Below are positions 22,096 through 34,384 of a stretch of DNA of 64,000 nt, piece after piece. Origin of the DNA: Thermalbibacter longus (GTDB lineage: Bacteria > Chloroflexota > Chloroflexia > Thermomicrobiales > Thermomicrobiaceae); assembly GCF_023806485.1 (NCBI RefSeq), contig NZ_JAMSLR010000013.1, positions 1,045 to 65,044 on the forward strand, in the 5' to 3' direction. The notes under the pieces are model-generated. The model had not been told where the DNA came from, searched no databases, and saw only the letters and a list, made by a program, of their open reading frames with translations. A program made the translations under genes and the position numbers. How positions within the stretch are numbered: the first letter of the stretch is position 1; each line of letters begins with the position of its first letter.

Positions 22096-23751
22096 ATGCA
22101 GGTCGCCGACGCTGTGGCAGAGATCCTCAAGCGCGAGGGCGTAGAGTTCCTCTTCGGGTACCCGGTCAACCCGATCATCGAGGCTGCAGCGCGGGCCGAT
22201 ATCCGGACGATCATCGTGCGCCAGGAGCGAACCGGTATCCACATGGCCGATGCCGTTAGCCGGGTGACCTCCGGCGAGCGGATCGGCGTCTTCGCGATGC
22301 AGCACGGGCCAGGCACCGAGAACTCGTTCGGCGGCGTGGCCCAGGCCTATGGCGACTCGGTGCCGATCGTGGTTCTCCCGGCCGGCTATCCCCGCCGGCT
22401 CACCAACATCTCGCCCAACTTCAACGCGTTCCTGAACTACCAGCACATCACCAAGTGGGCCGAGCAGGTGGTCGTAGCGGCAGCCGTGCCCGATGCCCTG
22501 CGGCGTGCCTTTACCCAGGCTCGGAACGGCCGGCCACGGCCAGCACTGGTCGAGATCCCGACAGACCTCTTCGCCGAGGAGGTGCCCGAGCCGCTCAGCT
22601 ACCGCCCGGCGCCGCGGCTGCGCACGGCGCCGGATCCTCAGGCAGTCGAGGAGGTGGCGCGCGTGCTGTTGGCGGCCGAGCGGCCAGTCATCTACGCCGG
22701 CCAGGGAGTCCACTACGCGCGCGCCTGGGGTGCCCTGCGGGAACTAGCCGAGCTGCTGGAGGCCCCAGTGACCACGAGCCTCCAGGGGAAGAGCGCCTTC
22801 CCGGAAGATCACCCGCTCTCGCTCGGTTCGGGCGGCCGGGCCATCCCGAAGACCGTGCACCACTTCCTGCAGCGAGCCGACGTGATCTTCGGCATCGGGT
22901 GCAGCTTCGCAACGACGAACTACGGAGTCACGATCCCGGCTGGCAAGACGATCGTGCACGCGACGCTGGACCCGGCCGATATCAACAAAGACGTGCCAGC
23001 CGACTACGCGCTGCTGGGCGATGCCGGCCTCACGCTGGAGGCGCTGGTCGAGGCGGTGCGCGACCTGCTCAGCGGTCGGCCACGCGGCCGCGCGGAGACG
23101 GTGGCCGCCGAGATCCGCGCGGTGAGGGAGGAATGGCTGCGATCGTGGATGCCCCGGCTCACGTCCGATGAGAAGCCGCTCTCTCCTTACCGGGTCATCT
23201 GGGATCTGATGCGCACGGTGGACGTCGCCAACACGATCATCACCCACGACGCCGGCAGCCCGCGGGATCAGCTCTCGCCGTTCTGGGTGTGCCGGGAGCC
23301 GCTGACCTATATCGGGTGGGGCAAGACGACGCAGCTCGGCTACGGGTTAGGCCTGGCGCTGGGAGCCAAGCTTGCCCGGCCGGAGAAGCTCTGCATCAAC
23401 ATCTGGGGTGACGCGGCGATTGGCTTCACTGGCATGGACTTCGAGACAGCCGTACGGGAGCGTATCCCGATCCTCTCGGTGCTGCTGAACAACTTCTCGA
23501 TGGCGATCGAGCTGCCGGTGATGCCCGTGGCCACGGAGAAATACCGGGCGACCGATATCAGCGGCAACTATGCCGAGTTCGCGCGGGCGCTGGGGGGCTA
23601 CGGCGAGCGGGTGACCGAGCCCGGCGAGATCGTTCCGGCGATCCAGCGCGCGCTACGCCAGGTCGAGGACGGCACGCCTGCCCTGCTCGAGTTCATCACT
23701 GCGAAGGAGATCACGTTTTCGATGTTCCCTGATCCCGCAGCGTCTTCCTGA
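22096..23751 (+). CDS. thiamine diphosphate-requiring enzyme (acetolactate synthase/benzoylformate decarboxylase superfamily)
   Basis: A 551-residue three-domain ThDP enzyme. The N-terminal PYR domain has FLFGYPVNPI and the catalytic Glu in RQERTGIHMADA. A central domain is followed by a PP domain with the ThDP/Mg motif starting GDAAIGFTGMDFETA and ending LLNN. It lacks an obvious regulatory subunit, so it need not be acetolactate synthase. As first gene of the 12-kb plus-strand block it could decarboxylate or carboligate a 2-oxo acid from aromatic breakdown (inference). AGGAGAGG precedes the ATG. Confidence 0.8.
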   Translation: MQVADAVAEILKREGVEFLFGYPVNPIIEAAARADIRTIIVRQERTGIHMADAVSRVTSGERIGVFAMQHGPGTENSFGGVAQAYGDSVPIVVLPAGYPRRLTNISPNFNAFLNYQHITKWAEQVVVAAAVPDALRRAFTQARNGRPRPALVEIPTDLFAEEVPEPLSYRPAPRLRTAPDPQAVEEVARVLLAAERPVIYAGQGVHYARAWGALRELAELLEAPVTTSLQGKSAFPEDHPLSLGSGGRAIPKTVHHFLQRADVIFGIGCSFATTNYGVTIPAGKTIVHATLDPADINKDVPADYALLGDAGLTLEALVEAVRDLLSGRPRGRAETVAAEIRAVREEWLRSWMPRLTSDEKPLSPYRVIWDLMRTVDVANTIITHDAGSPRDQLSPFWVCREPLTYIGWGKTTQLGYGLGLALGAKLARPEKLCINIWGDAAIGFTGMDFETAVRERIPILSVLLNNFSMAIELPVMPVATEKYRATDISGNYAEFARALGGYGERVTEPGEIVPAIQRALRQVEDGTPALLEFITAKEITFSMFPDPAASS

Positions 23752-24331
23752 GGGTGCTGCCACTCACGAAATGGATTCGATGCCACCTGCCTCGAAGGCG
23801 GATGGTATGCGTCCTCTCTCCGATCTGTTCGCAGCTCTGCTGGGGCTACGGTGATTCCCATCGCATGACTGGATCTGTGTGAGTGCGCTTATGGTTTGTA
23901 TCCAGTGGCGGAGCGATTGGCCAGTTCTCTATGAGCGTCTGCATTGGAAAGCAGAAATTGTTCATCTATGCTGAACAGGCTACTTGCTCGCGTCGATGTT
24001 CGCCAATACCCTGGAGCCAGTGCAGGTAGGTGGGGAACCGGGTTGGGTAGCGCTTGCCTCCTATGCCTGGTTCGCCTATTGGGCGTGTCCTTCATAGAGA
24101 TGCCGAGCACGTATTGTGGCGCTCTGCGCTCCCGAGGCTTTCGTGCGTACGATCCACCAGGCAATAAGAAGGATGTCGCGACGGCTCGGCATAACCCTGC
24201 TGTGGGCAGTGGATCCGCCCTGCGGGAAGAGGGGGTGAGCTGCGGGTCGATCGGCATCGTCCGTCCGGGGCGTGTTATGGTGAGTGTAGAGAGGAGTTGT
24301 GACAGGAATGGCACGAGGACGTGAGGAGGCG
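23752..24331. other. long noncoding gap upstream of the ABC transporter block
   Basis: About 580 bases without a supportable gene. The middle (23.8-24.2 kb) is visibly lower in GC than its surroundings, and six-frame reading gives only short frames with no recognisable motif. It may hold the promoter of the transporter/catabolic block or the remains of a lost gene. Confidence 0.4.
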
Positions 24332-25684
24332 ATGAACATGCTCGAACGACGACTGAGCCGGCGCGCGATGCTTCGCGTCTTCGGTGGGGGGCTCGCAACG
24401 AGCGTGCTGTTGAGCGCCTGCCGCGGGGAACAGACTCCGACCACAGCCCCTGCGGCTACGCCCACAAGCGCGCCGGCTGCGACTCCTACGGCAGCGGCCA
24501 CGCCGACCGGTGCGGCGGGTGCCGCGACCCCCACAACTGCCCCAGCCGCCGCTACGCCCACGGTCAGCGCTGAGCCGATCCGGCTGGGCATTCTTCTCGA
24601 CCTGTCGGGCCCAGCGGCCCCCAACGGCGAGGGCAACCTCCGCGGGCTGCAGCTTGCTCTCGAGCAAGCTGGCATGACGGTCGCCGGGCGAACGATTCAA
24701 ACCTTCGTCGAAGACTCCGCCAGCCAGCCCGAGCAAGCGCTCACGAAGGCGCGGCAGCTCGTCGAGCGTGACCGCGTGCACCTGCTGGCTGGCATTACCC
24801 TGAGTAACCAGGCTGCTGCGCTGAAAGACTATCTCGTGCAGAACGAGTTACCCACGATTGTCACGAACGCTGGCCTGCAGGCCCTGACGCGCGATCCGGC
24901 CATGCGGAGCCCGTACATCTTCCGCGTCGCCATTACCAACGGCCAGCAGGATGCCCCGATGGCATCGTACGCATACAACACTCTCGGATACCAGCGAGTG
25001 GCCGTCACGGCAGCCGACTACGCTGCGGGGCACGAGCACGTCGCCGCGTTCCGAAGCGCATTCGAGAAGGCTGGCGGGCAGATCGTCGATGAAGTGTATG
25101 CTCCGTTCGGGACGCAGGATTTCGGACCCTACCTGCAACGGCTCGGCCAGCTCGTTGGCCAGGTCGATGCCATCTACGCCTTCCACGGCACGAGTACCGA
25201 CGCGATCCGGTTCATCGTGCAGTACCAGGAGTTCGGGCTCAAGGACCAGATCCCGCTGGTTCCGTCAGGGGAGAACCTCGATCAATCGCTGCTCTCGGAG
25301 ATGGGCGACGCTGCCCTGGATCTGATGGGCGGTCTGGCCTACACGGCGTTCTTCGAAAGCCCGGAGAATCAAGCCTTCGTGGAAGCGTTCCAGGCCAAGC
25401 ACAACAGTCTCCCCGGAAAGGTCGCCTATAGCGGCTATCTCGGAGGGCTGGTCATCCTAGAAGCGCTCGAGAGCATCGATGGGCAGGTCGAGGATAAGCA
25501 AGGCCTGCTCCAGGCGCTGAAGCAGGTACAGATTACCGGGCCGGCGGGCGAGTTTCGGTTCCATCCGGAGTCGCAGGGAGCAGTGGTGACGATTTTCATC
25601 TGCCGCGTCGAGCAGGTCGAAGGTGGACAGCTCGGGAACGTGGTTGTCGAGCAGGTACCCAATGTCGATGACCTGTCGTTCTAG
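24332..25684 (+). CDS. Liv-type ABC transporter substrate-binding lipoprotein (Tat signal)
   Basis: A 450-residue periplasmic-binding-fold protein of the branched-chain amino acid (Peripla_BP_6) class. The N-terminus has a twin-arginine motif LSRRAML, a hydrophobic stretch and the lipobox LLSAC, then a Thr/Pro/Ala linker of about 60 residues. The mature domain starts PIRLGILLDLSGPAA. The ATG at 24332 follows GAGGAGG. Permeases and ATPases of the same importer follow from 27.4 kb, with a LigM-like gene between. In this class aromatic acids are as common as amino acids as ligands, and the neighbours suggest an aromatic ligand (inference). Confidence 0.88.
   Translation: MNMLERRLSRRAMLRVFGGGLATSVLLSACRGEQTPTTAPAATPTSAPAATPTAAATPTGAAGAATPTTAPAAATPTVSAEPIRLGILLDLSGPAAPNGEGNLRGLQLALEQAGMTVAGRTIQTFVEDSASQPEQALTKARQLVERDRVHLLAGITLSNQAAALKDYLVQNELPTIVTNAGLQALTRDPAMRSPYIFRVAITNGQQDAPMASYAYNTLGYQRVAVTAADYAAGHEHVAAFRSAFEKAGGQIVDEVYAPFGTQDFGPYLQRLGQLVGQVDAIYAFHGTSTDAIRFIVQYQEFGLKDQIPLVPSGENLDQSLLSEMGDAALDLMGGLAYTAFFESPENQAFVEAFQAKHNSLPGKVAYSGYLGGLVILEALESIDGQVEDKQGLLQALKQVQITGPAGEFRFHPESQGAVVTIFICRVEQVEGGQLGNVVVEQVPNVDDLSF
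24343..24363 (+). repeat. 21-base direct repeat, copy 1
   Basis: Matches 27323-27343 with one mismatch (20 of 21). This copy encodes the Tat motif at the start of the binding protein. Confidence 0.6.
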
Positions 25685-25828
25685 GTGCCCGCGTGGTCCT
25701 CGAGACGACGCGGTGCGGGATGCCGGAAGGCTGAGCTGCCCCCGGGAGTTGACGGGCTTCACGGTCTCCGTCTTCGGCCTTCCTGAGCGCGACAGCGATC
25801 GGTACGTGTCTCGTAGGAGGATCGAGCG

Positions 25829-27229
25829 ATGAGCGCTTCGCCGGTGAACAACCTGCAGCAGATCATCGACCAGGGGCCGAACATCGTCGAACGCCTGTAC
25901 AACAACCCGGTCGGCGCGCGCGTCTACCCGGTCGTGCCCCCGGAGTTCTCCAACTGGCGCGATGAGCAGCACTCCTGGCGGGAGACCGTCTGCCTCTTCG
26001 ACCTCTCCTATCACATGACGGATCTCTTCCTGCGTGGCCCGGATGCCTTCGGGCTCCTGGAGCGGCTGGCGATCAATAGCTTCGCCAAGTTCTCTCCGGG
26101 GCAGGCCAAGCAGCTCATCTGCGTGACGCCCGATGGCTACCTGATCGGCGACGGCATCCTGTTCTACCTCGAGGACGGGACGTTCCAGATCGTTGGTCGC
26201 CCGTCGCTCCATAACTGGGTGCAATATCACGCGGCAACCAGCGGCGCGGCCGTGCAGTGGGAGCGCGACGAGTGGTCGGTGGCTGATCCCCACCGGCCGC
26301 GCAAGACCTACCGGTTCCAGATCCAGGGGCCGAACGCCATGCCGCTCCTGGAGCGACTGCTGGGAGGACCGCCACCGGAGCTGCCGTTCTTCCACTTCAC
26401 GCGGGTGACGATCGCCGGTCGCCAGGTCGGGATGCTGCACCACGGGATGGCGGGCGCGCCAGGGGCCGAGTTCTTCGGTCCCTTCGAGGACGGCCAGGCG
26501 GTGAAGGCGGCGATTCTGGAAGCGGGCCGGGATCTCGGTTTGCGCCAGGTCGGCTCGCGTGCCTACGCGACGAACGGCCTCGAGTCCGGCTGGATTCCCA
26601 ACCCGCTCCCGGCGATCTATACCGGTGAGGAGCTGCGACCGTACCGCGAGTGGCTGCCGGCGACGGCGTACGAGGCGGCTGGCTCGCTGGGAGGAAGCTT
26701 CCTCTCCGAGGACATCAGCGCCTACTACCTGACGCCCTGGGACCTCGGGTACGGGCGGCTCGTGAAGTTCGACCACGATTTCGTGGGCCGCGCCGCACTC
26801 GAGCGGATGAAGCAGGGACCGCATCGCAAGAAGGTGACGCTGGTCTGGGATCCGGACGACGTGGCTCGGGTGATCGGGAGCCTCTATATGAGGCCGAAGG
26901 GCGAGCGCTACAAGTACCTCGACCTGCCACTCGGGCAGTACGCTACCTGGATGTACGACGCGGTCTTGAACGATCGTGGCGAGGTGGTAGGCTTCGCGAT
27001 GTGGACCGGGTACACCTCGAACGAGGGGGCAGAGCTCTCGCTCGCGACGGTGCGGGAAGAGTATGCGCAGCCTGGCACGCGGCTGACCCTCGTGTGGGGC
27101 GAGCCGAACGGCGGCTCGCGCAAGCCCTCTGTCGAGCGACACGTGCAGACTGAGATCCGGGTCACAGTCGGCCCGGCACCCTACTCGGAGGCCGCGCGGC
27201 GCTACCGCGAGACGGTCACGCGCCACTGA
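25829..27229 (+). CDS. aminomethyltransferase-fold protein, LigM-like tetrahydrofolate-dependent O-demethylase
   Basis: A 466-residue GcvT-fold protein, the length of LigM/DesA (vanillate/3-O-methylgallate and syringate O-demethylases) and longer than GcvT itself. Motifs include LFDLSYHMTDLFLRGPDA, NSFAKFSPGQAKQLICVTPDGYLIGD split across residues 78-105, and the C-terminal DYDFVGRAAL-like DHDFVGRAALERM. These proteins move a methyl group from an aromatic methoxyl to tetrahydrofolate. No glycine-cleavage partner genes are nearby, while ring-cleavage genes follow, which favours O-demethylation. The exact substrate is unknown. GTAGGAGGATCGAGCG precedes the ATG. Confidence 0.78.
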   Translation: MSASPVNNLQQIIDQGPNIVERLYNNPVGARVYPVVPPEFSNWRDEQHSWRETVCLFDLSYHMTDLFLRGPDAFGLLERLAINSFAKFSPGQAKQLICVTPDGYLIGDGILFYLEDGTFQIVGRPSLHNWVQYHAATSGAAVQWERDEWSVADPHRPRKTYRFQIQGPNAMPLLERLLGGPPPELPFFHFTRVTIAGRQVGMLHHGMAGAPGAEFFGPFEDGQAVKAAILEAGRDLGLRQVGSRAYATNGLESGWIPNPLPAIYTGEELRPYREWLPATAYEAAGSLGGSFLSEDISAYYLTPWDLGYGRLVKFDHDFVGRAALERMKQGPHRKKVTLVWDPDDVARVIGSLYMRPKGERYKYLDLPLGQYATWMYDAVLNDRGEVVGFAMWTGYTSNEGAELSLATVREEYAQPGTRLTLVWGEPNGGSRKPSVERHVQTEIRVTVGPAPYSEAARRYRETVTRH

Positions 27230-27317
27230 GGGCCAGGGGCCGAACCTGAACGCTTCACCCCTGGTCGCTCGCCGCGCAGGCCGCGAGCGGTCGCGCTCCG
27301 AGAGGAGGGAGTGAGGC

Positions 27318-27443
27318 GTGCACGAGCGACGACTGAGCCGGCGTTTGGAACAGTTGCCGAACGGCAGTTACGGCACTCTCGTGATCGATATGCTCGGCAA
27401 GATGGACCATTCGGTGTACGGGCTGCGAGGTGGGCGAAGCTGA
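27318..27443 (+). CDS. possible 41-residue peptide or gene remnant
   Basis: A GTG-start frame with an AGAGGAGGGAG ribosome site encodes HERRLSRRLEQL followed by an unrecognised tail (residues 13-41) and ends just before livH. Its first codons repeat the Tat-signal start of the 24.3-kb binding protein, so it may be what remains of a second binding-protein gene after internal deletion, or a real small protein. There is no hydrophobic segment, so it cannot be a working signal peptide. Confidence 0.35.
   Translation: MHERRLSRRLEQLPNGSYGTLVIDMLGKMDHSVYGLRGGRS
27323..27343 (+). repeat. 21-base direct repeat, copy 2
   Basis: Second copy of the repeat at 24343-24363, in the same reading phase relative to the ERRLSRR codons. 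Confidence 0.6.
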
Positions 27444-27461
27444 CGGTGGTGGGAGGATAGC

Positions 27462-28322
27462 GTGCCGCTCAACACGGCGAGCGTCGTCATCGGCTTGTCG
27501 TATGCCAGCCTGCTCTTCCTGGTGGCGGTGGGGCTGTCGGTTGTCTTCGGGCTGATGCGCTTCGTCAACCTGGCCACTGGGTCGCTCTACCTGATCGGTG
27601 GGTACCTGGCCTGGACGATCGCCGGGGAGCTGGGGAGCTTCTGGCTGGCGCTGCTCGGCGGCGCGCTCGGCGCGCTGGCGGTCGGGGTAGTGATCGAGCG
27701 GGGCTTTCTCGAGCGGCTGCATCGCAACGAGCTCTTGCAGGTGTGCCTCACGCTCGGCGTCGCCTACGTGGTGCAGGACGTGACGCGCTGGATCTGGGGT
27801 GGCGACCCGCTGCGGCTGCGGCCGCCGGAGTCCTTGCGCGGCTCGATCTTGCTGCTGGGCTCCATCGTGCCGACCTATCGCGTCGCTCTCATCGTGGCTG
27901 GGGTGGTGCTGGCTGGCCTGGTCTGGTACCTGCTGGAGCGCACCAAGTGGGGCGCCTATGTCCGGGCGGGGGTGGATGACCTGGAGATGCTCGAGTGCCT
28001 GGGGATCAACGGGCGGCGGGTGTTCGCGATCGTCTTCGCGCTGGGCGCGCTGCTGTGCGGACTGGGCGGGGCGCTGGGGACCCCGGTCACTGGGGTGGCG
28101 CCGGGGGCGGACATCCAGATTCTGCTGATGGCGCTGATCGTGGTGGTGCTGGGCGGGCTGGGCTCGGTCTCCGGGGCGGTGGTGGCAAGCGTGGTGGTCG
28201 GGTTGGTCGATAGCATGGTGCGCACCTACTGGCCGGAGGCCTCGTTCTTTGCGGTGTGGGTGCTGGCGGCGCTGGTGCTGGCCGTGCGGCCACAGGGGCT
28301 TTTGGGCCGGGTGACCGCGTAG
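27462..28322 (+). CDS. branched-chain amino acid-type ABC transporter permease, LivH family
   Basis: A 286-residue membrane protein with about eight helices. It has the LivH pattern GLSYASLLFLVAVGLSVVFG, LMRFVNLATGSLY at the start, VAYVVQDVTRWIWGGDP, and VVVLGGLGSVSGAVV near the end. It forms the membrane channel together with LivM. GTG at 27462 follows GGGAGGA. The next gene starts 12 bases after its stop. Confidence 0.9.
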   Translation: MPLNTASVVIGLSYASLLFLVAVGLSVVFGLMRFVNLATGSLYLIGGYLAWTIAGELGSFWLALLGGALGALAVGVVIERGFLERLHRNELLQVCLTLGVAYVVQDVTRWIWGGDPLRLRPPESLRGSILLLGSIVPTYRVALIVAGVVLAGLVWYLLERTKWGAYVRAGVDDLEMLECLGINGRRVFAIVFALGALLCGLGGALGTPVTGVAPGADIQILLMALIVVVLGGLGSVSGAVVASVVVGLVDSMVRTYWPEASFFAVWVLAALVLAVRPQGLLGRVTA

Positions 28323-28334
28323 GGCAGGAAGGGT

Positions 28335-29375
28335 ATGCCGATGGAGCAGATGAGCCGGCTGAGGCAGCGATGGCAGCTCCTCGCCTACGTGGTCGCCGTC
28401 GCGGCGCTGCTCCTGGCGCCGGCGGTGCTGTCGACCTATCCACTGAGCGTGCTGACCGAGATCCTGATCTTCGGGCTCTTCGCCATGTCGCTCAACCTGC
28501 TTTTGGGCTATACCGGGCTGCCGACCCTGGGGCATTCGGCCTTCTTCGGCGCCGGCGGGTACGTCGTGGGCTTGCTCGCCAAGTACTACCAGGTGCCCCT
28601 GGGGCCGGCGCTGCTACTGGCCATCCTCGCGGGCGTGGTCCTGGCGCTGGTGACGGGGCCGATCGTGCTGCGGACGAGCGGGGCCTACTTCCTGATGCTG
28701 ACCCTCTCGCTCACTCAGGTGCTGTTCGGGGTCGTCTGGCTGGCGCGGGGGGTGACTGGGGGCGATGACGGGTTGCCAGGCATTCCGACGCCGCAGCTCG
28801 CGTTCCTGGCTGGGTCGCTGGAGCCGACAGCGAACTTCTACTACCTGGCGCTGGCCATCGTGGTGGTCGCAATCGCGAGCATGGCCTGGGTGGTGCGCTC
28901 GTCATTCGGGCTGGCGCTGCTGGCCATTCGGGAGAACGAGCGGGTGGTGGAAGGGTTGGGATACCCGACCTGGCTGGTGAAGTACGCGGTCTACGCGCTG
29001 GCCGGTGGGTACGGGGCGCTGGCCGGGGCGCTCTACACCTTCTTCAAGGGCTACGTCGGGCCGGGCCAGTTGAGCTGGCTGGTGGCGGGGGAAGGGCTGG
29101 TGATGACGATCGTCGGCGGCGCGGGCACTTTCTGGGGCCCGATGGTAGGGGCAGCGGTGGTGCTGCTCCTGCGCTACGAGGTGAGCACCTTCACCCAGCG
29201 CTGGTTGCTGATTCTCGGATTGATCTTCATTGCCACTGTCGTCCTCATGCCCCGCGGCATCGTGCGGCTACCTGAGCGGCTGCGCGAAGTGCGGGCTCGG
29301 GTGCGCCGGGAGGAGCTGCTGGAGCCGGTGGCGGGGGAGCGGCAGCCGGCCGAGCAGGTCGTGGAGCGGTCGTAG
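28335..29375 (+). CDS. branched-chain amino acid-type ABC transporter permease, LivM family
   Basis: A 346-residue permease with an N-terminal extra helix and the LivM signature SLNLLLGYTGLPTLGHSAFF, AIRENERVVEGLGYP, and GGAGTFWGPMVGAAV near residue 258. The charged C-terminal tail (about the last 40 residues) is cytoplasmic. GGAAGGG precedes the ATG. Its stop is separated by one base from the ATPase gene. Confidence 0.9.
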   Translation: MPMEQMSRLRQRWQLLAYVVAVAALLLAPAVLSTYPLSVLTEILIFGLFAMSLNLLLGYTGLPTLGHSAFFGAGGYVVGLLAKYYQVPLGPALLLAILAGVVLALVTGPIVLRTSGAYFLMLTLSLTQVLFGVVWLARGVTGGDDGLPGIPTPQLAFLAGSLEPTANFYYLALAIVVVAIASMAWVVRSSFGLALLAIRENERVVEGLGYPTWLVKYAVYALAGGYGALAGALYTFFKGYVGPGQLSWLVAGEGLVMTIVGGAGTFWGPMVGAAVVLLLRYEVSTFTQRWLLILGLIFIATVVLMPRGIVRLPERLREVRARVRREELLEPVAGERQPAEQVVERS

Positions 29376-29376
29376 C

Positions 29377-30141
29377 ATGGCTGAAACGGCGCTGCAGCTC
29401 GAGCACATTACCAAGACGATCGGCGGGCTCACGATCCTCGATGACGTGTCGCTCACGGTGATGCCGGGGGAGCGGCGGGCGGTGATCGGCCCGAACGGGG
29501 CCGGCAAGACGACGCTGCTCAACGTGATTGCTGGCTTTCTCCCCCCGAGCCGGGGGCGGGTGGTCGTGTTCGGGCGTGACGTGACGCGATTGCCGGCGCA
29601 CCGGCGGGTCGATGTTGGGCTGTTGAAGACGAACCAGCAACCGGCCGTCTTTCGCGAGCTGACAGTCCGGCAGAACATCCTGCTGGCGCTGCTGCGCGGC
29701 CGTCACCCGCTGCTGGGGCTGACGGCGCTCGTGAGTCTCGATCGCGAGGTCCAGCGGCAGGCCGAGGACGTGCTGGAGGAGTGGGACCTGCTGGCAGTGG
29801 CAGACGACGAGGTGCGGCACCTGCCGCACGGGTACCAGCGGCGGGTGGAGCTAGCGGCGCGCTTTGCGATGCAGCCGCGGCTGCTGTTGCTCGACGAGCC
29901 GGCGGCAGGGCTGGCGGCCGAGGAGATACCGGGCTTCATCGAGCGGCTGCGCCGGCTCCCGCGCGAGGTGACCGTGGTGCTGGTGGAGCACAGCATGCGG
30001 GTGGTGTTCGCCTTTGCCGATCGGGTGACCGTGCTGCACCACGGGGCGGTGCTGGCCGACGGTACGCCTGAGGCGGTGCAGCAGGACGAGCGGGTGCAGG
30101 AGGCGTACCTCTCGGGCGCGATGCGGAGGGGTCATGCTTGA
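29377..30141 (+). CDS. ABC transporter ATP-binding protein, LivG family
   Basis: A 254-residue ATPase. Walker A is GPNGAGKTT, Walker B is LLLLDEPAAGLA and the switch His is in VEHSM. The ABC signature is degenerate, LPHGYQRRVELA instead of LSGGQ-type, but the Gly needed for ATP contact is kept. The inserted LivG-specific loop around QQPAVFRELTVRQN is present. ATG at 29377 directly follows the LivM stop, and the 3' end overlaps LivF by 8 bases. Confidence 0.9.
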   Translation: MAETALQLEHITKTIGGLTILDDVSLTVMPGERRAVIGPNGAGKTTLLNVIAGFLPPSRGRVVVFGRDVTRLPAHRRVDVGLLKTNQQPAVFRELTVRQNILLALLRGRHPLLGLTALVSLDREVQRQAEDVLEEWDLLAVADDEVRHLPHGYQRRVELAARFAMQPRLLLLDEPAAGLAAEEIPGFIERLRRLPREVTVVLVEHSMRVVFAFADRVTVLHHGAVLADGTPEAVQQDERVQEAYLSGAMRRGHA

Positions 30142-30862
30142 GCTGCACGAGGTCTACGGCGGCTACGGGGACGGGCTGGTGCTGAACGGCCTGTCGCTGA
30201 GCGTGGGCGAGGGGCAGGTGGTGGCGCTGCTGGGGCGGAACGGGGCTGGCAAGACGACCACGATGCGGGCCGTCTTCGGGCTGCTGCCGCGCCTGGCGGG
30301 CAGGATCACGCTGCGGGGGGAGTCGCTGCGGGGGCTGGCTCCGTACGCCGTGGCGGCGCGCGGAGTGGCGCTGGTGCCGCAGGGGCGCCGGATCTTCCCC
30401 TCGCTGACGGTAACCGAGAATCTGCTGATCGGCGTGCGGCCGCCGCGTGGGGAGCAGCGGGTGCGCTGGACCCTGGAGGAGATCTACCGGTTGTTCCCCA
30501 TCCTGCGGGAGCGAGGGAACCTGCGGGGCACGCTGCTGAGCGGGGGAGAGCAGCAGATGCTGACGATTGCCCGCTCGCTGCTGACGCAGCCGCTGGTCCT
30601 GCTGTGCGATGAGCCGTCGGAAGGGCTGGCGCCGGTGATGGTGCAGCGGGTGGCTGAGATCCTGCACCGGCTCAAGGAGGCCGGGCTCTCGATCCTGCTG
30701 GCGGAGCAGAACCTGGACCTGGCGCTGTCGGTAGCGGACGTGGCCTACATCCTCGAAGAGGGCCGGGTCATCTGGCAGGGCACCGCCGAGGAGTTGCTGG
30801 CCGACACGCACGTGCAGGCAACCTATCTGGGGCTTCGCGTCGAGGCGAGCGAAGGCGCCTGA
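30134..30862 (+). CDS. ABC transporter ATP-binding protein, LivF family
   Basis: A 242-residue ATPase partner of the LivG-like protein. It has Walker A GRNGAGKTT, the Q-loop VPQGRRIFPSLTV typical of LivF, signature LLSGGEQQMLTIARSL and Walker B LLCDEPSEGLAP. The start lies within the upstream gene, a usual coupling for LivG-LivF. An imperfect palindrome at 30902-30925 follows. Confidence 0.92.
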   Translation: MLELHEVYGGYGDGLVLNGLSLSVGEGQVVALLGRNGAGKTTTMRAVFGLLPRLAGRITLRGESLRGLAPYAVAARGVALVPQGRRIFPSLTVTENLLIGVRPPRGEQRVRWTLEEIYRLFPILRERGNLRGTLLSGGEQQMLTIARSLLTQPLVLLCDEPSEGLAPVMVQRVAEILHRLKEAGLSILLAEQNLDLALSVADVAYILEEGRVIWQGTAEELLADTHVQATYLGLRVEASEGA

Positions 30863-30901
30863 ACTCGGCTGCCCGCGCGGGCGGGCATGCCTGGCAGGTT
30901 C

Positions 30902-30925
30902 AGGAATTCGGCCGGCCCGGAATTC
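30902..30925. repeat. near-perfect palindrome after livF
   Basis: GGAATTC and GGAATTCC arms enclose GGCC-rich inner arms with one unpaired base. It may act as a terminator or processing signal between the transporter and catabolic genes. No T-run is present. Confidence 0.35.
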
Positions 30926-31032
30926 CAGAGGCGACTTTCTCTTCACACGTGGGTGGTACAGGGAGGCCATTCGATCGCCCGAGGCGAGAGATGCGGGATG
31001 GCACGGCGGTGGAGCAGGGAGCGGAGCTGGGT

Positions 31033-31974
31033 ATGTCGGAGCAGCGAGCGAGAGAGCATCCCGTCCCTTCGGCGCGAGCCCGTGAGCTCGTCCGTGGGGC
31101 GTACGACCTTCACGTCCACTCGGGACCGGACGTCATGCGGCGGCGCATCGACGACCTCGAGCTCGCGGGCCGGTTCCGCGAGCTGGGCCTGGCTGGCTAC
31201 GTCATCAAGTCGCACTACGTGCCGACGGCCGAGCGGGCGGCGGTCGTCCGCCGTGCCGTGCCGGGCGTCCGCGTGCTGGGCTCGATCACCCTCAACGCAG
31301 CCGTCGGCGGGCTGAATCCGCTGGCGGTCGAGATCGCGGCGCGCGAAGGGGCGCGCATCGTCTGGCTTCCGACGGTCGATTCGGTCAACGAGCGCCGGCA
31401 CCACGCATCGGACCAGGCAGCGGACGCGACGAAGCTTCCCTACTGGGCCCGCCTGCAGCGCGAGATGCGCGCTGCAGGGTTCGAGTCCGAGCCGGTTGAG
31501 GTCGTCGACCAGGATGGGCGGGCGCTGCCCCTGCTGCGGCAGGTGCTCCGGGTGGTGGCGCGCCACGACATGGTGCTCGCCACCGGTCATCTCGGTCGCG
31601 ATGAGATCTTCGCGGCCGTCGCCGCCGCGCGCGAGGAAGGGGTGCGCCACATCGTCGTGACGCATCCGGACTTCCCTAGCCAGGCGCTGCCGGTCGGAGA
31701 TCAGATCGAGCTGGCGCAGCAAGGCGCGATCCTCGAGCACTGCTTCACTCCGGTCTACACTGGCAAAGTCTCCTGGGAGACCATGTTCGAGCATATCCGG
31801 GCGGTCGGTCCAACCTCGGTCGTGCTCAGCAGCGACCTCGGCCAGCCGGATAACCCGCCAGTGGAAGACGGCCTCGCGCTGATGGTCGATCGCCTGCTCG
31901 AAGCAGGCTTCAGCGAAGACGAGATCCACACGATGGCGGTCCGCAATACGGTGCGATTGGCAGGTGAGGCGTGA
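31033..31974 (+). CDS. DUF6282 family amidohydrolase-like protein
   Basis: A 313-residue protein with amidohydrolase (TIM-barrel) metal motifs: AYDLHVHSGPD (HxH, about residue 23-33), then SHYV, ATGHL, THPDF and SSDLGQPDNPP (final Asp). It matches the family annotated DUF6282, of unknown reaction. It lies between the aromatic importer and genes for a 4-oxalomesaconate-type hydratase and aldolase. A lactonase role like LigI is a testable idea. ATG at 31033 follows GCGGAG; ATG at 30991 is an alternative. Confidence 0.75.
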   Translation: MSEQRAREHPVPSARARELVRGAYDLHVHSGPDVMRRRIDDLELAGRFRELGLAGYVIKSHYVPTAERAAVVRRAVPGVRVLGSITLNAAVGGLNPLAVEIAAREGARIVWLPTVDSVNERRHHASDQAADATKLPYWARLQREMRAAGFESEPVEVVDQDGRALPLLRQVLRVVARHDMVLATGHLGRDEIFAAVAAAREEGVRHIVVTHPDFPSQALPVGDQIELAQQGAILEHCFTPVYTGKVSWETMFEHIRAVGPTSVVLSSDLGQPDNPPVEDGLALMVDRLLEAGFSEDEIHTMAVRNTVRLAGEA

Positions 31975-31976
31975 CG

Positions 31977-32708
31977 ATGAGCGGCATACAGCGTCTCCTC
32001 GTGGTCGGTGCGCATGCGGCCGACTTCGTCTGGCGTGCCTCGGGGGTGATCGCGCTGGCGACGGAGCGCGGCGCGCAGGCGACGGTGCTTGCCCTCTCTT
32101 ACGGCGAGCGGGGCGAGTCGGGCGAGCTCTGGAAGGAACCCGGACAGACGGTGGAGCGGGTCAAGCGCATTCGCCACGAGCAGGGGGAGCAGGCGGCGAA
32201 GATCGTCGGCGCCGAGTTTCGCTGTCTCGACCTTGGCGATTACCCGCTGGAGGTAGGCCGCGAGGCATTGGACCAGCTCGCCCAGGTGATCCGCGATCTC
32301 GCGCCCGATGTCATCATCACTCATACCGCGGTGGACCCCTTCAACCCTGATCACCCCGTGACTCACGACGCGGTGATGAAAGCGCGGCTGCTCGCCTCTG
32401 GTGCTGGCGTCGCGAGCGCATTCGAGACGGTCAAGCCGCCAGTCATCTACCTCTTCGAGCCCCACCAGCCGGAGCTCTGCGGCTTCGTGCCCAACGCGTT
32501 CGTCGACATTACCCCGGTCTACGAGAAGAAGCTCGAGGCGATGCGCGCTGTCGGCTCGCAGCAGTACTTGCAGAAGTACTACGCCGAGCTGGCCGAGCGG
32601 CGCGGCAACCACGCTCGCCGCATCTCCGGCAACGGCGCCGTGCGCTACGCCGAGGCGTTCCAGCGCGTCACTCCGCTGGTCTCGAGTGACCTTATCGGGC
32701 ACGGATGA
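31977..32708 (+). CDS. PIG-L-fold hydrolase, GalB-like 4-oxalomesaconate hydratase
   Basis: A 243-residue LmbE/PIG-L-fold protein. The metal motif is AHAADFVWRASG instead of the AHPDD of deacetylases. This substitution, along with SYGERGESGELW and FFEPHQPE-like YLFEPHQPELCGF, is what I know from Pseudomonas GalB, a zinc hydratase in the gallate pathway. It would hydrate 4-oxalomesaconate to 4-carboxy-4-hydroxy-2-oxoadipate. ATG at 31977 follows GGTGAGGCG; a GTG at 31971 overlaps the upstream stop. The following aldolase gene supports the call. Confidence 0.78.
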   Translation: MSGIQRLLVVGAHAADFVWRASGVIALATERGAQATVLALSYGERGESGELWKEPGQTVERVKRIRHEQGEQAAKIVGAEFRCLDLGDYPLEVGREALDQLAQVIRDLAPDVIITHTAVDPFNPDHPVTHDAVMKARLLASGAGVASAFETVKPPVIYLFEPHQPELCGFVPNAFVDITPVYEKKLEAMRAVGSQQYLQKYYAELAERRGNHARRISGNGAVRYAEAFQRVTPLVSSDLIGHG

Positions 32709-32725
32709 GCCGAAAGGAGCAGGCG

Positions 32726-33391
32726 ATGCACCAGATGGACGAAGCCGGGCGCGCCGCGCTCGAACGAGCCTGCGCGGAGCTGGCCGAGCTAGGCGTGGCG
32801 ACCGTCTACGAGGCCTCCGGCCGCCAGGGCTTGATCGATATCCCGCTGCAGCCGCTGAGCCCCGGCAGCCGGGTCGCCGGGCCGGCGCTCACCGTGCTGT
32901 GCGGGCAGGGCGACAACCTGATGGTGCACGCGGTGATGGAGCGCGTCTACCCGGGCGCCGTGCTCGTCATCACGATGCCCGAGCCCGAGCCGGTGGCACT
33001 GGTGGGCGAGCTGCTCGCCATCCAGGCCAAAGTTCGCGGGGCGGCCGCGCTGCTGGTGGACGCGGCGGTGCGGGACGTGGACGAGCTGCGTCGGATGGGG
33101 TTGCCGGTGTGGGCGCGATTCGTGCGAGTGCGCGGAGCGGCCAAGGACGCGGTGGGCGCGATCGACGTGCCGGTCACGGTCGGCGGTGCGCGGATCGAGC
33201 CAGGCGACGTGGTCGTGCTCGACGATGACGGCGCGGTCGTCGTCGCGCGGGCGCGCCTCGAGCAGGTGCTGGACGCCTCCCGGGCCCGGGCCGAGCGGGA
33301 GGCCAGGCTCCGGGAAGAGCTGCTTGCCGGAAAGCTCTCCTACGACCTGCACGGGTTGCGAGCGGTCGTCGAGTCGCGAGCGCGGCCGTAG
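32726..33391 (+). CDS. RraA-family protein, probable 4-carboxy-4-hydroxy-2-oxoadipate aldolase
   Basis: A 221-residue RraA-fold protein. Family motifs are GVATVYEASGRQG at the start, PGAVLVI, and the active-site block ALLVDAAVRDVDELR, in which Arg-Asp are the catalytic/metal residues of HMG/CHA aldolases. PGDVVVLDDDGAVVV follows. It would cleave 4-carboxy-4-hydroxy-2-oxoadipate to pyruvate and oxaloacetate, the step after GalB. ATG at 32726 has AAAGGAG upstream, better than the overlapping ATG at 32705. An RNase E regulator role is unlikely in this context. Confidence 0.8.
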   Translation: MHQMDEAGRAALERACAELAELGVATVYEASGRQGLIDIPLQPLSPGSRVAGPALTVLCGQGDNLMVHAVMERVYPGAVLVITMPEPEPVALVGELLAIQAKVRGAAALLVDAAVRDVDELRRMGLPVWARFVRVRGAAKDAVGAIDVPVTVGGARIEPGDVVVLDDDGAVVVARARLEQVLDASRARAEREARLREELLAGKLSYDLHGLRAVVESRARP

Positions 33392-33415
33392 TCGAGAGAC
33401 AGGAGACGGGTCACA

Positions 33416-34384
33416 ATGCAGGACGTTCGTTTCTGGAGCGGAGAGCCCTGCTTCGATATCGCGCACCTGGCGCACGTGGAGCTCTTGACCCCCGCGCTCG
33501 ACGAGAGCGTCCGCTTCTTCGTCGATATCCTGGGGATGACGGTGAGCGCGCGGCGCGGCAACTCGGTCTACCTGCGAGGGTGGGATGACTATGCCCATCA
33601 CACGCTGAAGCTCACGGCCGGGCCGGTGGCTGCCATGGAGCACTTCGCCTTTCGGACGAGCTCGCCTGAGGCGCTAGAGCGGCGCGTCGCGGCTCTGGAG
33701 CGGAGTGGCCTGGGACTGGGGTGGATCGAGGGCGACGAGGGGCACGGCCCCGCCTACCGCTTCCGCACGCCCGACGGCCACATCGTGGAAGTGCTCTGGG
33801 AGGTCGACTGGTACCAGCCCACGCCCGAGACGCGGCCGGCGCTGAAGAACCAGGCTTCGCGCTTCCCTGCCCGAGGCTGCAATGTGCGCCGGCTCGACCA
33901 CATCAACCTGTTCGCCGTCGACGTGCGGGCCAGCCGCCTCGCCCTGCAGGACTATCTGGGACTGCGGCTGACCGAAATCATCATCTTCGATGACGGTTCG
34001 GAGAAGGGCTCCTGGGTCACCTCCAACAACAAGGGATACGAGGTCGCGATCACCGAGGACGCGACCGGCACTCCCGGCCGGTTCCATCACGTCTGCTACG
34101 CGGTCGATACGCGGGAGGAGGTGCTGCGGGCAGCCGACATCATGCTGGAGTCCGGCGTGCGCATCGAGTACGGGCCGCACAAGCACGCAATCCAGCAGAC
34201 CGTGTTCCTGTACGTCTACGAGCCGGGTGGGCACCGGGTGGAGATCGGCTGCCCCGGAGCGCGGCTGGTTCTGGCGCCCGACTGGAAGCCGGTGGTGTGG
34301 AGCCAGGAGGAGCGCAAGCGCGGGCAGGCCTGGGGCTTGCCCACCGTGGCCACCTTCCACACCTACGGCACGCCGCCGGTGTGA
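33416..34384 (+). CDS. extradiol ring-cleavage dioxygenase, catechol 2,3-dioxygenase (XylE-like) family
   Basis: A 322-residue two-domain VOC protein. Each half has the babababb module. The C-terminal half keeps the iron ligands His in RLDHINLF (about residue 162), His in GRFHHVCYAV (about 223) and Glu in HRVEIGCPG (about 276), plus the conserved Tyr in FLYVYEPGG. It should cleave a catechol-type ring next to the diol. It closes a run of catabolic genes with an aldolase and hydratase for the carboxylated meta-cleavage product. GGAGACGG precedes the ATG. Confidence 0.85.
   Translation: MQDVRFWSGEPCFDIAHLAHVELLTPALDESVRFFVDILGMTVSARRGNSVYLRGWDDYAHHTLKLTAGPVAAMEHFAFRTSSPEALERRVAALERSGLGLGWIEGDEGHGPAYRFRTPDGHIVEVLWEVDWYQPTPETRPALKNQASRFPARGCNVRRLDHINLFAVDVRASRLALQDYLGLRLTEIIIFDDGSEKGSWVTSNNKGYEVAITEDATGTPGRFHHVCYAVDTREEVLRAADIMLESGVRIEYGPHKHAIQQTVFLYVYEPGGHRVEIGCPGARLVLAPDWKPVVWSQEERKRGQAWGLPTVATFHTYGTPPV

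Follow-up and report, generated by a model that had tools for sequence, protein, structure and literature searches.

The 64,000-nucleotide window analysed here comes from Thermalbibacter longus (contig C5, positions 1045-65044, of a 3.63-Mb genome that is 99.9% complete) and carries a gene cluster predicted to serve the catabolism of an aromatic acid. Eleven intact open reading frames, all on the plus strand, occupy positions 22096-34384. The core, from 24332 to 34384, encodes in this order a substrate-binding protein (SBP), a protein of the LigM/DesA family, the importer components LivH, LivM, LivG and LivF, a DUF6282 protein, a GalB-like hydratase, an RraA-type aldolase and a VOC-family dioxygenase homologue. 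The spacing is tight within two groups, with 12, 1 and -8 nt between livH, livM, livG and livF and -4, -4 and 24 nt between the DUF6282, GalB, RraA and VOC genes. Wider gaps separate SBP from LigM (144 nt), LigM from LivH (232 nt) and LivF from DUF6282 (170 nt). The original prediction had described a single-strand cluster with a Liv importer, a LigM-length GcvT-fold protein, a GalB-like hydratase with the motif AHAADF, an RraA-type aldolase and an XylE-type dioxygenase, and each of these is found as an intact plus-strand reading frame; the DUF6282 gene had been overlooked. The family content of the genome was probed by targeted family searches.

The VOC dioxygenase homologue and its conserved neighbourhood

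The VOC gene (33416..34384, +) encodes a type I (VOC, XylE-like) extradiol dioxygenase homologue according to family searches, alignment, an AlphaFold2 (AF2) model and Foldseek. The model has a pLDDT of 92 and matches AphC and the C23O of RHA1 (3lm4/7q2a) with a TM score of 0.91. Fold and metal site thus agree with an XylE-type enzyme: the ligands H162, H225 and E276 form a 2-His-1-Glu site that is invariant across 34 sequences. An active-site Asn, a second His and a Tyr are likewise shared with the type I enzymes C23O, AphC and homoprotocatechuate 2,3-dioxygenase (HPCD). Unlike these, the window protein has an NKxY motif, in which Tyr208 takes the place of His200 of HPCD in the phmmer alignment, and its gene is linked to GalB and RraA, not to semialdehyde-processing enzymes. 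In HPCD, His200 is the acid-base residue, and the rate is reported to become vanishingly small without it (PMC10760822); the window protein lacks a histidine at this position. We describe it as a homologue of the type I extradiol family with an altered catalytic residue, and we infer from its sequence an extradiol-type activity. A solved Tyr-type enzyme, PDB 9wgj, is deposited as 'catechol 1,2-dioxygenase', yet belongs to the VOC extradiol-type proteins; the open-access literature yielded no paper on it.

Characterised enzymes that open the ring of gallate or methylgallate are assigned to the LigB superfamily (PMC4250580). The LigB domain PF02900, which represents the GalA, DesB and LigAB type, has no match among the proteins of the window cluster. 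A LigB-type dioxygenase was rejected as a cluster member, and the single LigB-fold gene of the genome stands in an unrelated context. No description of a type I gallate dioxygenase was found in the open-access literature searched.

A scan with the VOC protein over 84,980 genomes returned 40 loci and a phylum search over 400 genomes returned 26 genomes; the neighbourhood counts given here cover 56 VOC genes with readable surroundings. GalB and RraA are both found near 38 of them, in Thermomicrobiota/Chloroflexota, Armatimonadota, Acidobacteriota and Pseudomonadota. Represented are Thermomicrobium with its close relatives (L002-L004, L011, L080, L081), Armatimonadota (L008-L010), an acidobacterium (L032) and a second family of Chloroflexota (L074, L087), together with numerous Rhizobiales and further Proteobacteria. 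L002 belongs to a cultured relative, Thermomicrobium sp. CFH 73360. The window genome is closest to Thermomicrobium genomes, where the VOC protein is 83% identical, and to genome G347 of the same family. In a Bacillota genome, a DUF6282-GalB-RraA set with 67-76% identity (L129) is separate from the VOC gene (L007). Because the pairing of VOC, GalB and RraA recurs in dozens of genomes, it lies far beyond chance. The pairing had been called unusual, which holds against characterised pathways but not against genomes, Proteobacteria included, where the 38 loci make it common.

The tyrosine follows the same neighbourhood. Tyr-type genes account for 46 of the 56 VOC genes and for all 38 loci with GalB and RraA, whereas none of the 10 His-type genes has GalB or RraA nearby. 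Fisher's test over the 56 genes gives p ~1e-6 for this linkage, a value that does not stand for 46 independent cases because the Tyr/His split is one deep event. In the tree, the His-type set forms a single clade with a split support of 100/99. The window genome itself carries both types: at C1:342-355 kb (L082) two HpaB-like monooxygenases, two His-type VOC dioxygenases, a 4-hydroxy-2-oxovalerate aldolase and IclR-like regulators are found together, with an SBP that is 53% identical to that of the window cluster. The two His-type copies in their own catechol cluster are a useful internal control for the Tyr/His split.

DUF6282 at the position of GalD

The GalB-like protein (31971..32708, +) has the PIG-L fold (PF02585) and the motif AHAADF, and is a predicted 4-oxalomesaconate/KCH hydratase. 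Its best solved match is the 4-oxalmesaconate hydratase 5cgz with E 1.4e-58, the next match reaching 6e-10, and its gene is linked to that of the aldolase acting on 4-carboxy-4-hydroxy-2-oxoadipate (CHA). This RraA-type CHA aldolase/oxaloacetate decarboxylase (32705..33391, +; 3noj, E 1e-48) scores above the cut-off of the CHA aldolase family NF006731 with 206 vs 179 bits and below that of the narrower TIGR02798 with 192 vs 304.5 bits. The DUF6282 gene (31033..31974, +; PF19799, 233 bits) lies between livF and galB and overlaps galB by 4 nt.

The AF2 model of the DUF6282 protein (pLDDT 95) is a TIM barrel and predicts a member of the amidohydrolase superfamily. H27 and H29 of an HxH motif on strand 1, H186 on strand 5, H211 on strand 6 and D268 on strand 8 lie at the strand ends, in the positions of the amidohydrolase metal ligands. 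K59 and H61 are invariant as well, and E235 is a further conserved residue. A single-sequence search of solved structures gave no match, and a profile search gave at most a weak match to a phosphotriesterase homologue. Foldseek returned a broad range of amidohydrolases, with 2ffi, a homologue of hydrolases of the lactone PDC, at rank 17 (TM 0.56/0.63) and no sequence match to LigI. Since these matches are amidohydrolases in general, they fit a hydrolase and an isomerase alike. LigJ is a hydratase with an amidohydrolase fold. The modelled fold allows DUF6282 to act as an isomerase or hydratase, or as a lactone or ester hydrolase.

The third enzyme beside GalB and RraA is DUF6282 in 13 of the 38 loci and PrpF/GalD in 25, and both are found together in none. 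An enzyme above the cut-off for 4-oxalomesaconate (OMA) tautomerase occurs in 6/6 sampled GalD-type genomes vs 0/12 sampled DUF6282-type genomes; the PrpF paralogues of Armatimonadota all stay below this cut-off (at most 323.6 bits). For the window genome, members of the GalD/PrpF families (PF04303/NF033377) were found neither in the cluster nor in the rest of the 99.9% complete sequence. On the tree, the DUF6282 label must have changed three times or more. This alternation looks like a pattern of non-orthologous replacement. DUF6282 probably stands in for GalD, or else opens the lactone PDC; because of the alternation with GalD, the role as isomerase or hydratase is ranked somewhat ahead.

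The conserved gene orders connect this third position with a defined intermediate. In Neorhizobium the order is VOC-GalB-RraA-PrpF-DUF1932-GntR-LigM-MetF, and the PrpF of these Rhizobiales clusters exceeds the NCBI 4-oxalomesaconate tautomerase cut-off with 527 vs 440 bits. Because the third gene of the Rhizobiales passes this cut-off, the lower pathway is pinned to OMA. In Thermomicrobium L081 the order is MetF-FTHFS-LigM-NMT1-DUF6282-GalB-RraA-VOC. LigM adjoins MetF and FTHFS in Thermomicrobium L081 and L080, and MetF in Rhizobiales. From the linkages to LigM, MetF and FTHFS and to the tautomerase, the upper step is assigned to folate-dependent O-demethylation and the lower steps to the OMA route.

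In a further setting, a DUF6282 protein that is 52% identical and falls into the same sub-branch adjoins a 192-aa protein and a UbiD decarboxylase (L120:6370-10082). This locus is another possible aromatic-acid context for the family. No paper naming DUF6282 was found in the open-access literature.

Importer, O-demethylase and borders of the unit

The SBP (24332..25684, +, ATG at 24332) is of the lipoprotein type and belongs to a Liv-family ABC importer (PF13458, 224 bits). Its closest solved structure is PDB 4zpj with E 1.5e-178, followed by 4ey3/4eyg/4eyk, 4f06, 4evs and 4evq. The group of 4ey3, 4f06 and 4evs we take to be SBPs that bind lignin-derived benzoates, which the entry names do not say. 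The permeases LivH (27462..28322, +) and LivM (28335..29375, +) both match PF02653. The ATPase LivG (29377..30141, +) matches PF00005 and PF12399, and the ATPase LivF (30134..30862, +) matches TIGR03410 with 227 bits and LivF with 184 bits.

The gene between SBP and livH (25829..27229, +) encodes a GcvT-fold protein of 466 aa that is a predicted tetrahydrofolate (THF)-dependent aryl O-demethylase of the LigM/DesA family (NF047633, NF047885, LigM structures). The best PDB matches are the LigM structures 5x1i/5tl4, which align over the full length with E ~1e-153, while GcvT models reach at most 87 bits. Tyr246 in the motif VGSRAY aligns with the motif tyrosine of LigM, the catalytic Tyr247, and the motif occurs in 24 of 26 homologues, a set that includes fragments. 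By sequence the protein is LigM/DesA-like. A second LigM-family gene of the genome, at C1:171-175 kb (L146), scores 613 bits, above the LigM cut-off of 580, and adjoins FTHFS and a divergent MTHFR-family gene. Recycling of the methyl group relies on the folate genes FTHFS and MetF.

LigM, SBP and LivHMGF are adjacent in G347 as well (L148, G347:C2:394000-413999). Liv importers and folate O-demethylases are paired repeatedly in the Thermomicrobium/Sphaerobacter family. A Thermomicrobium locus (L155, G174:C11:1-15882) has the order GntR, aldehyde dehydrogenase, HpaD-like VOC, LigM, SBP, LivHMGF, a 6PGDH-like protein, HpcH/HpaI, a GalB-like protein (61%) and LigM (45%). This locus resembles a homovanillate-type version of the design seen in the window cluster.

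The first gene of the block, at 22096..23751 (+), encodes a thiamine diphosphate (ThDP) enzyme of the PRK06154 family (NF004807, 933 bits). Because 580 bp separate this gene from the SBP gene and the clusters of relatives contain no orthologue of it, we take the unit as 24332-34384. The ThDP enzyme was dropped as a pathway member; in the loci of relatives its matches reach just 23-26%. Of the block 22096-34384 proposed originally, the part from 24332 onwards stands, while the first 1.7 kb is probably extraneous and the ThDP gene probably lies outside the unit. Read from translations, Lgt and a protein kinase are encoded at one flank; at the other flank, the opposite strand encodes FabF/FabD. 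A scan for sigma-70 promoters found none and is uninformative at this GC content. Terminator-like sites occur at chance level (6 observed vs 3.8 expected), and an Rfam search gave zero matches.

Proposed route, alternatives and meaning

The reading proposed originally, in which a methoxylated aromatic acid is taken up, O-demethylated and meta-cleaved, remains the best one for the unit, and it gains from the recurrence of the cluster with the tautomerase, LigM, MetF and FTHFS. In its specific form, import and O-demethylation of a methoxylated benzoate followed by gallate-type cleavage through OMA, we consider it reasonably probable. All substrates and the step of DUF6282 we infer, whereas gene content, homology, conserved gene order, the Tyr/His split and the alternation of DUF6282 with GalD are observed. 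The importer, SBP with LivHMGF, would bring in a methoxylated benzoate, for which syringate and 3-O-methylgallate are the likeliest candidates. The LigM/DesA-family enzyme would transfer one or more methyl groups to THF, the other methyl probably being handled by the second LigM copy, which lies next to FTHFS and MetF at another genomic site, and methyl-THF would be recycled through MetF/FTHFS. The ring of gallate (or 3-O-methylgallate) would be opened by the VOC enzyme in place of a LigB-type GalA or DesB. OMA would then be readied for hydration by DUF6282 instead of the tautomerase GalD; should 3-O-methylgallate be the ring substrate, the task of DUF6282 would be the hydrolysis of PDC, a lactone, or of CHMOD, a methyl ester. 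GalB would hydrate the product to CHA, which the RraA aldolase would split into pyruvate and oxaloacetate.

The 4,5-cleavage of protocatechuate yields a semialdehyde that requires a dehydrogenase. The window cluster contains no dehydrogenase for the semialdehyde CHMS. As a required step in this lineage, the DUF1932 dehydrogenase was rejected, being absent from the window genome and its family (six genomes). Gallate cleavage leads to OMA directly, and 3-O-methylgallate leads to PDC or CHMOD (PMC12314914). Judged by gene content, protocatechuate is a poorer fit than gallate or 3-O-methylgallate; of the protocatechuate/gallate route to which hydratase and aldolase had been assigned, the gallate side is thus preferred. 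Gallate formed by two demethylations of syringate is favoured because the cluster has no such dehydrogenase, DUF1932 is absent and GalD-type clusters contain no recognised PDC hydrolase. The two LigM-family genes of the genome are consistent with two such demethylations.

Several observations weigh against this assignment. The LigM/DesA protein scores below both NCBIfam cut-offs, that for LigM narrowly (NF047885, 572 vs 580) and that for DesA (NF047633, 639 vs 800), and the VOC protein is barely above the catechol 2,3-dioxygenase cut-off TIGR03211 (321.7 vs 320.2). The association of Tyr and GalB goes back to the one deep split, and the many Neorhizobium loci are near-copies. Tyr-type loci without the partners exist (L014, L036; L006 and L033 are contig ends). 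The lone LigB-fold protein of the genome (301 aa, C1:253683-254492, L042:1462-2367) lies outside the aromatic clusters and has no curated subfamily. DUF6282 is a broad family that is also found in other settings, for example next to UbiD in L120. In genome G347, a Tyr-type VOC and LigM are present, with GalB/RraA at another site, but DUF6282 and GalD are both missing (L154); therefore neither is strictly needed, or another isomerase is present.

A doubtful but possible alternative is that 3-O-methylgallate, not gallate, is the ring-cleavage substrate, that DUF6282 opens PDC or demethylates the CHMOD ester like LigI or MgaC/DesC, and that OMA isomerises spontaneously or by GalB. Pseudomonas sp. 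NGC7 uses such a linear route (PMC12314914), the complete HxH/H/H/D set of the amidohydrolase barrel is typical of hydrolases, and GalD is absent genome-wide; however, DUF6282 alternates with GalD and never co-occurs with it, and NGC7 and SYK-6 have a hydrolase and GalD/LigU both. We regard as unlikely a vanillate route, in which LigM would form protocatechuate, the VOC enzyme CHMS and an unlinked dehydrogenase PDC, with DUF6282 as an analogue of LigI and GalB and RraA as the final enzymes. Against it stands that no LigC/PmdC-like gene is recognised in the window cluster, that the DUF1932 dehydrogenase of other clusters is missing from the genome and its family, and that GalD-type clusters have no recognised candidate for a PDC hydrolase. 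In its favour are the structural neighbour 2ffi of the modelled amidohydrolase, the second LigM above the LigM cut-off and the fact that vanillate is a substrate of LigM-family enzymes (PMC8091115). An ordinary catechol or alkylcatechol 2,3-dioxygenase in a loose collection of genes, with GalB and RraA in another route, would agree with the TIGR03211 score and with AphC and RHA1 C23O as closest well-studied structures, but is very improbable given the linkage across phyla, the 4-nt overlaps, the His200-to-Tyr split and the two His-type enzymes that the genome already has in a proper catechol cluster.

The gallate-type reading of the unit shares its lower part with known systems. As with galA-galD-galB-galC of Pseudomonas putida KT2440, GalB- and CHA-aldolase-type enzymes would convert OMA via CHA into pyruvate and oxaloacetate, and GalD is present in Proteobacterial versions of the VOC, GalB and RraA cluster. 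In contrast to KT2440, the predicted ring-cleavage enzyme is of the VOC family (type I) and not of the LigB family (type II), the genome lacks GalD and has DUF6282 in its position, and the importer is a Liv-type ABC system. With Sphingobium SYK-6 and Novosphingobium (DesA, LigM, DesB, LigAB, LigIUJK) it has in common the THF-dependent DesA/LigM with MetF/FTHFS and the OMA end route, whereas the window cluster has no recognised LigAB/DesB/DesZ, LigC, LigI, LigU or LigJ and its hydratase is of the GalB type. NGC7 (VanAB-MgaAB-MgaC-MgaD-GalDBC) is alike in the lower enzymes GalB and GalC and in a methoxylated gallate as likely intermediate, but it uses the Rieske enzyme VanAB and the LigAB-like MgaAB and retains GalD.

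Two features look new, the Tyr-for-His200 clade of GalB-associated VOC dioxygenases and the third position that holds DUF6282 or GalD. The cluster is apparently a widespread variant of the gallate route, undescribed so far in the open-access literature searched. As a tentative proposal, we suggest a cross-phylum pathway for gallate or 3-O-methylgallate in which a His-to-Tyr clade of type I dioxygenases opens the ring and DUF6282 has repeatedly replaced GalD. If true, ring opening of gallate or methylgallate by VOC enzymes would represent a second origin of this reaction, and the absent acid-base histidine would probe its necessity in the best-studied extradiol mechanism. For DUF6282, which has no assigned function, this would be a first role that is concrete and testable. 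With this gene set, Thermomicrobia, Armatimonadota and Acidobacteriota would join the users of lignin-derived acids, and lignin conversion may gain heat-stable enzymes from it.

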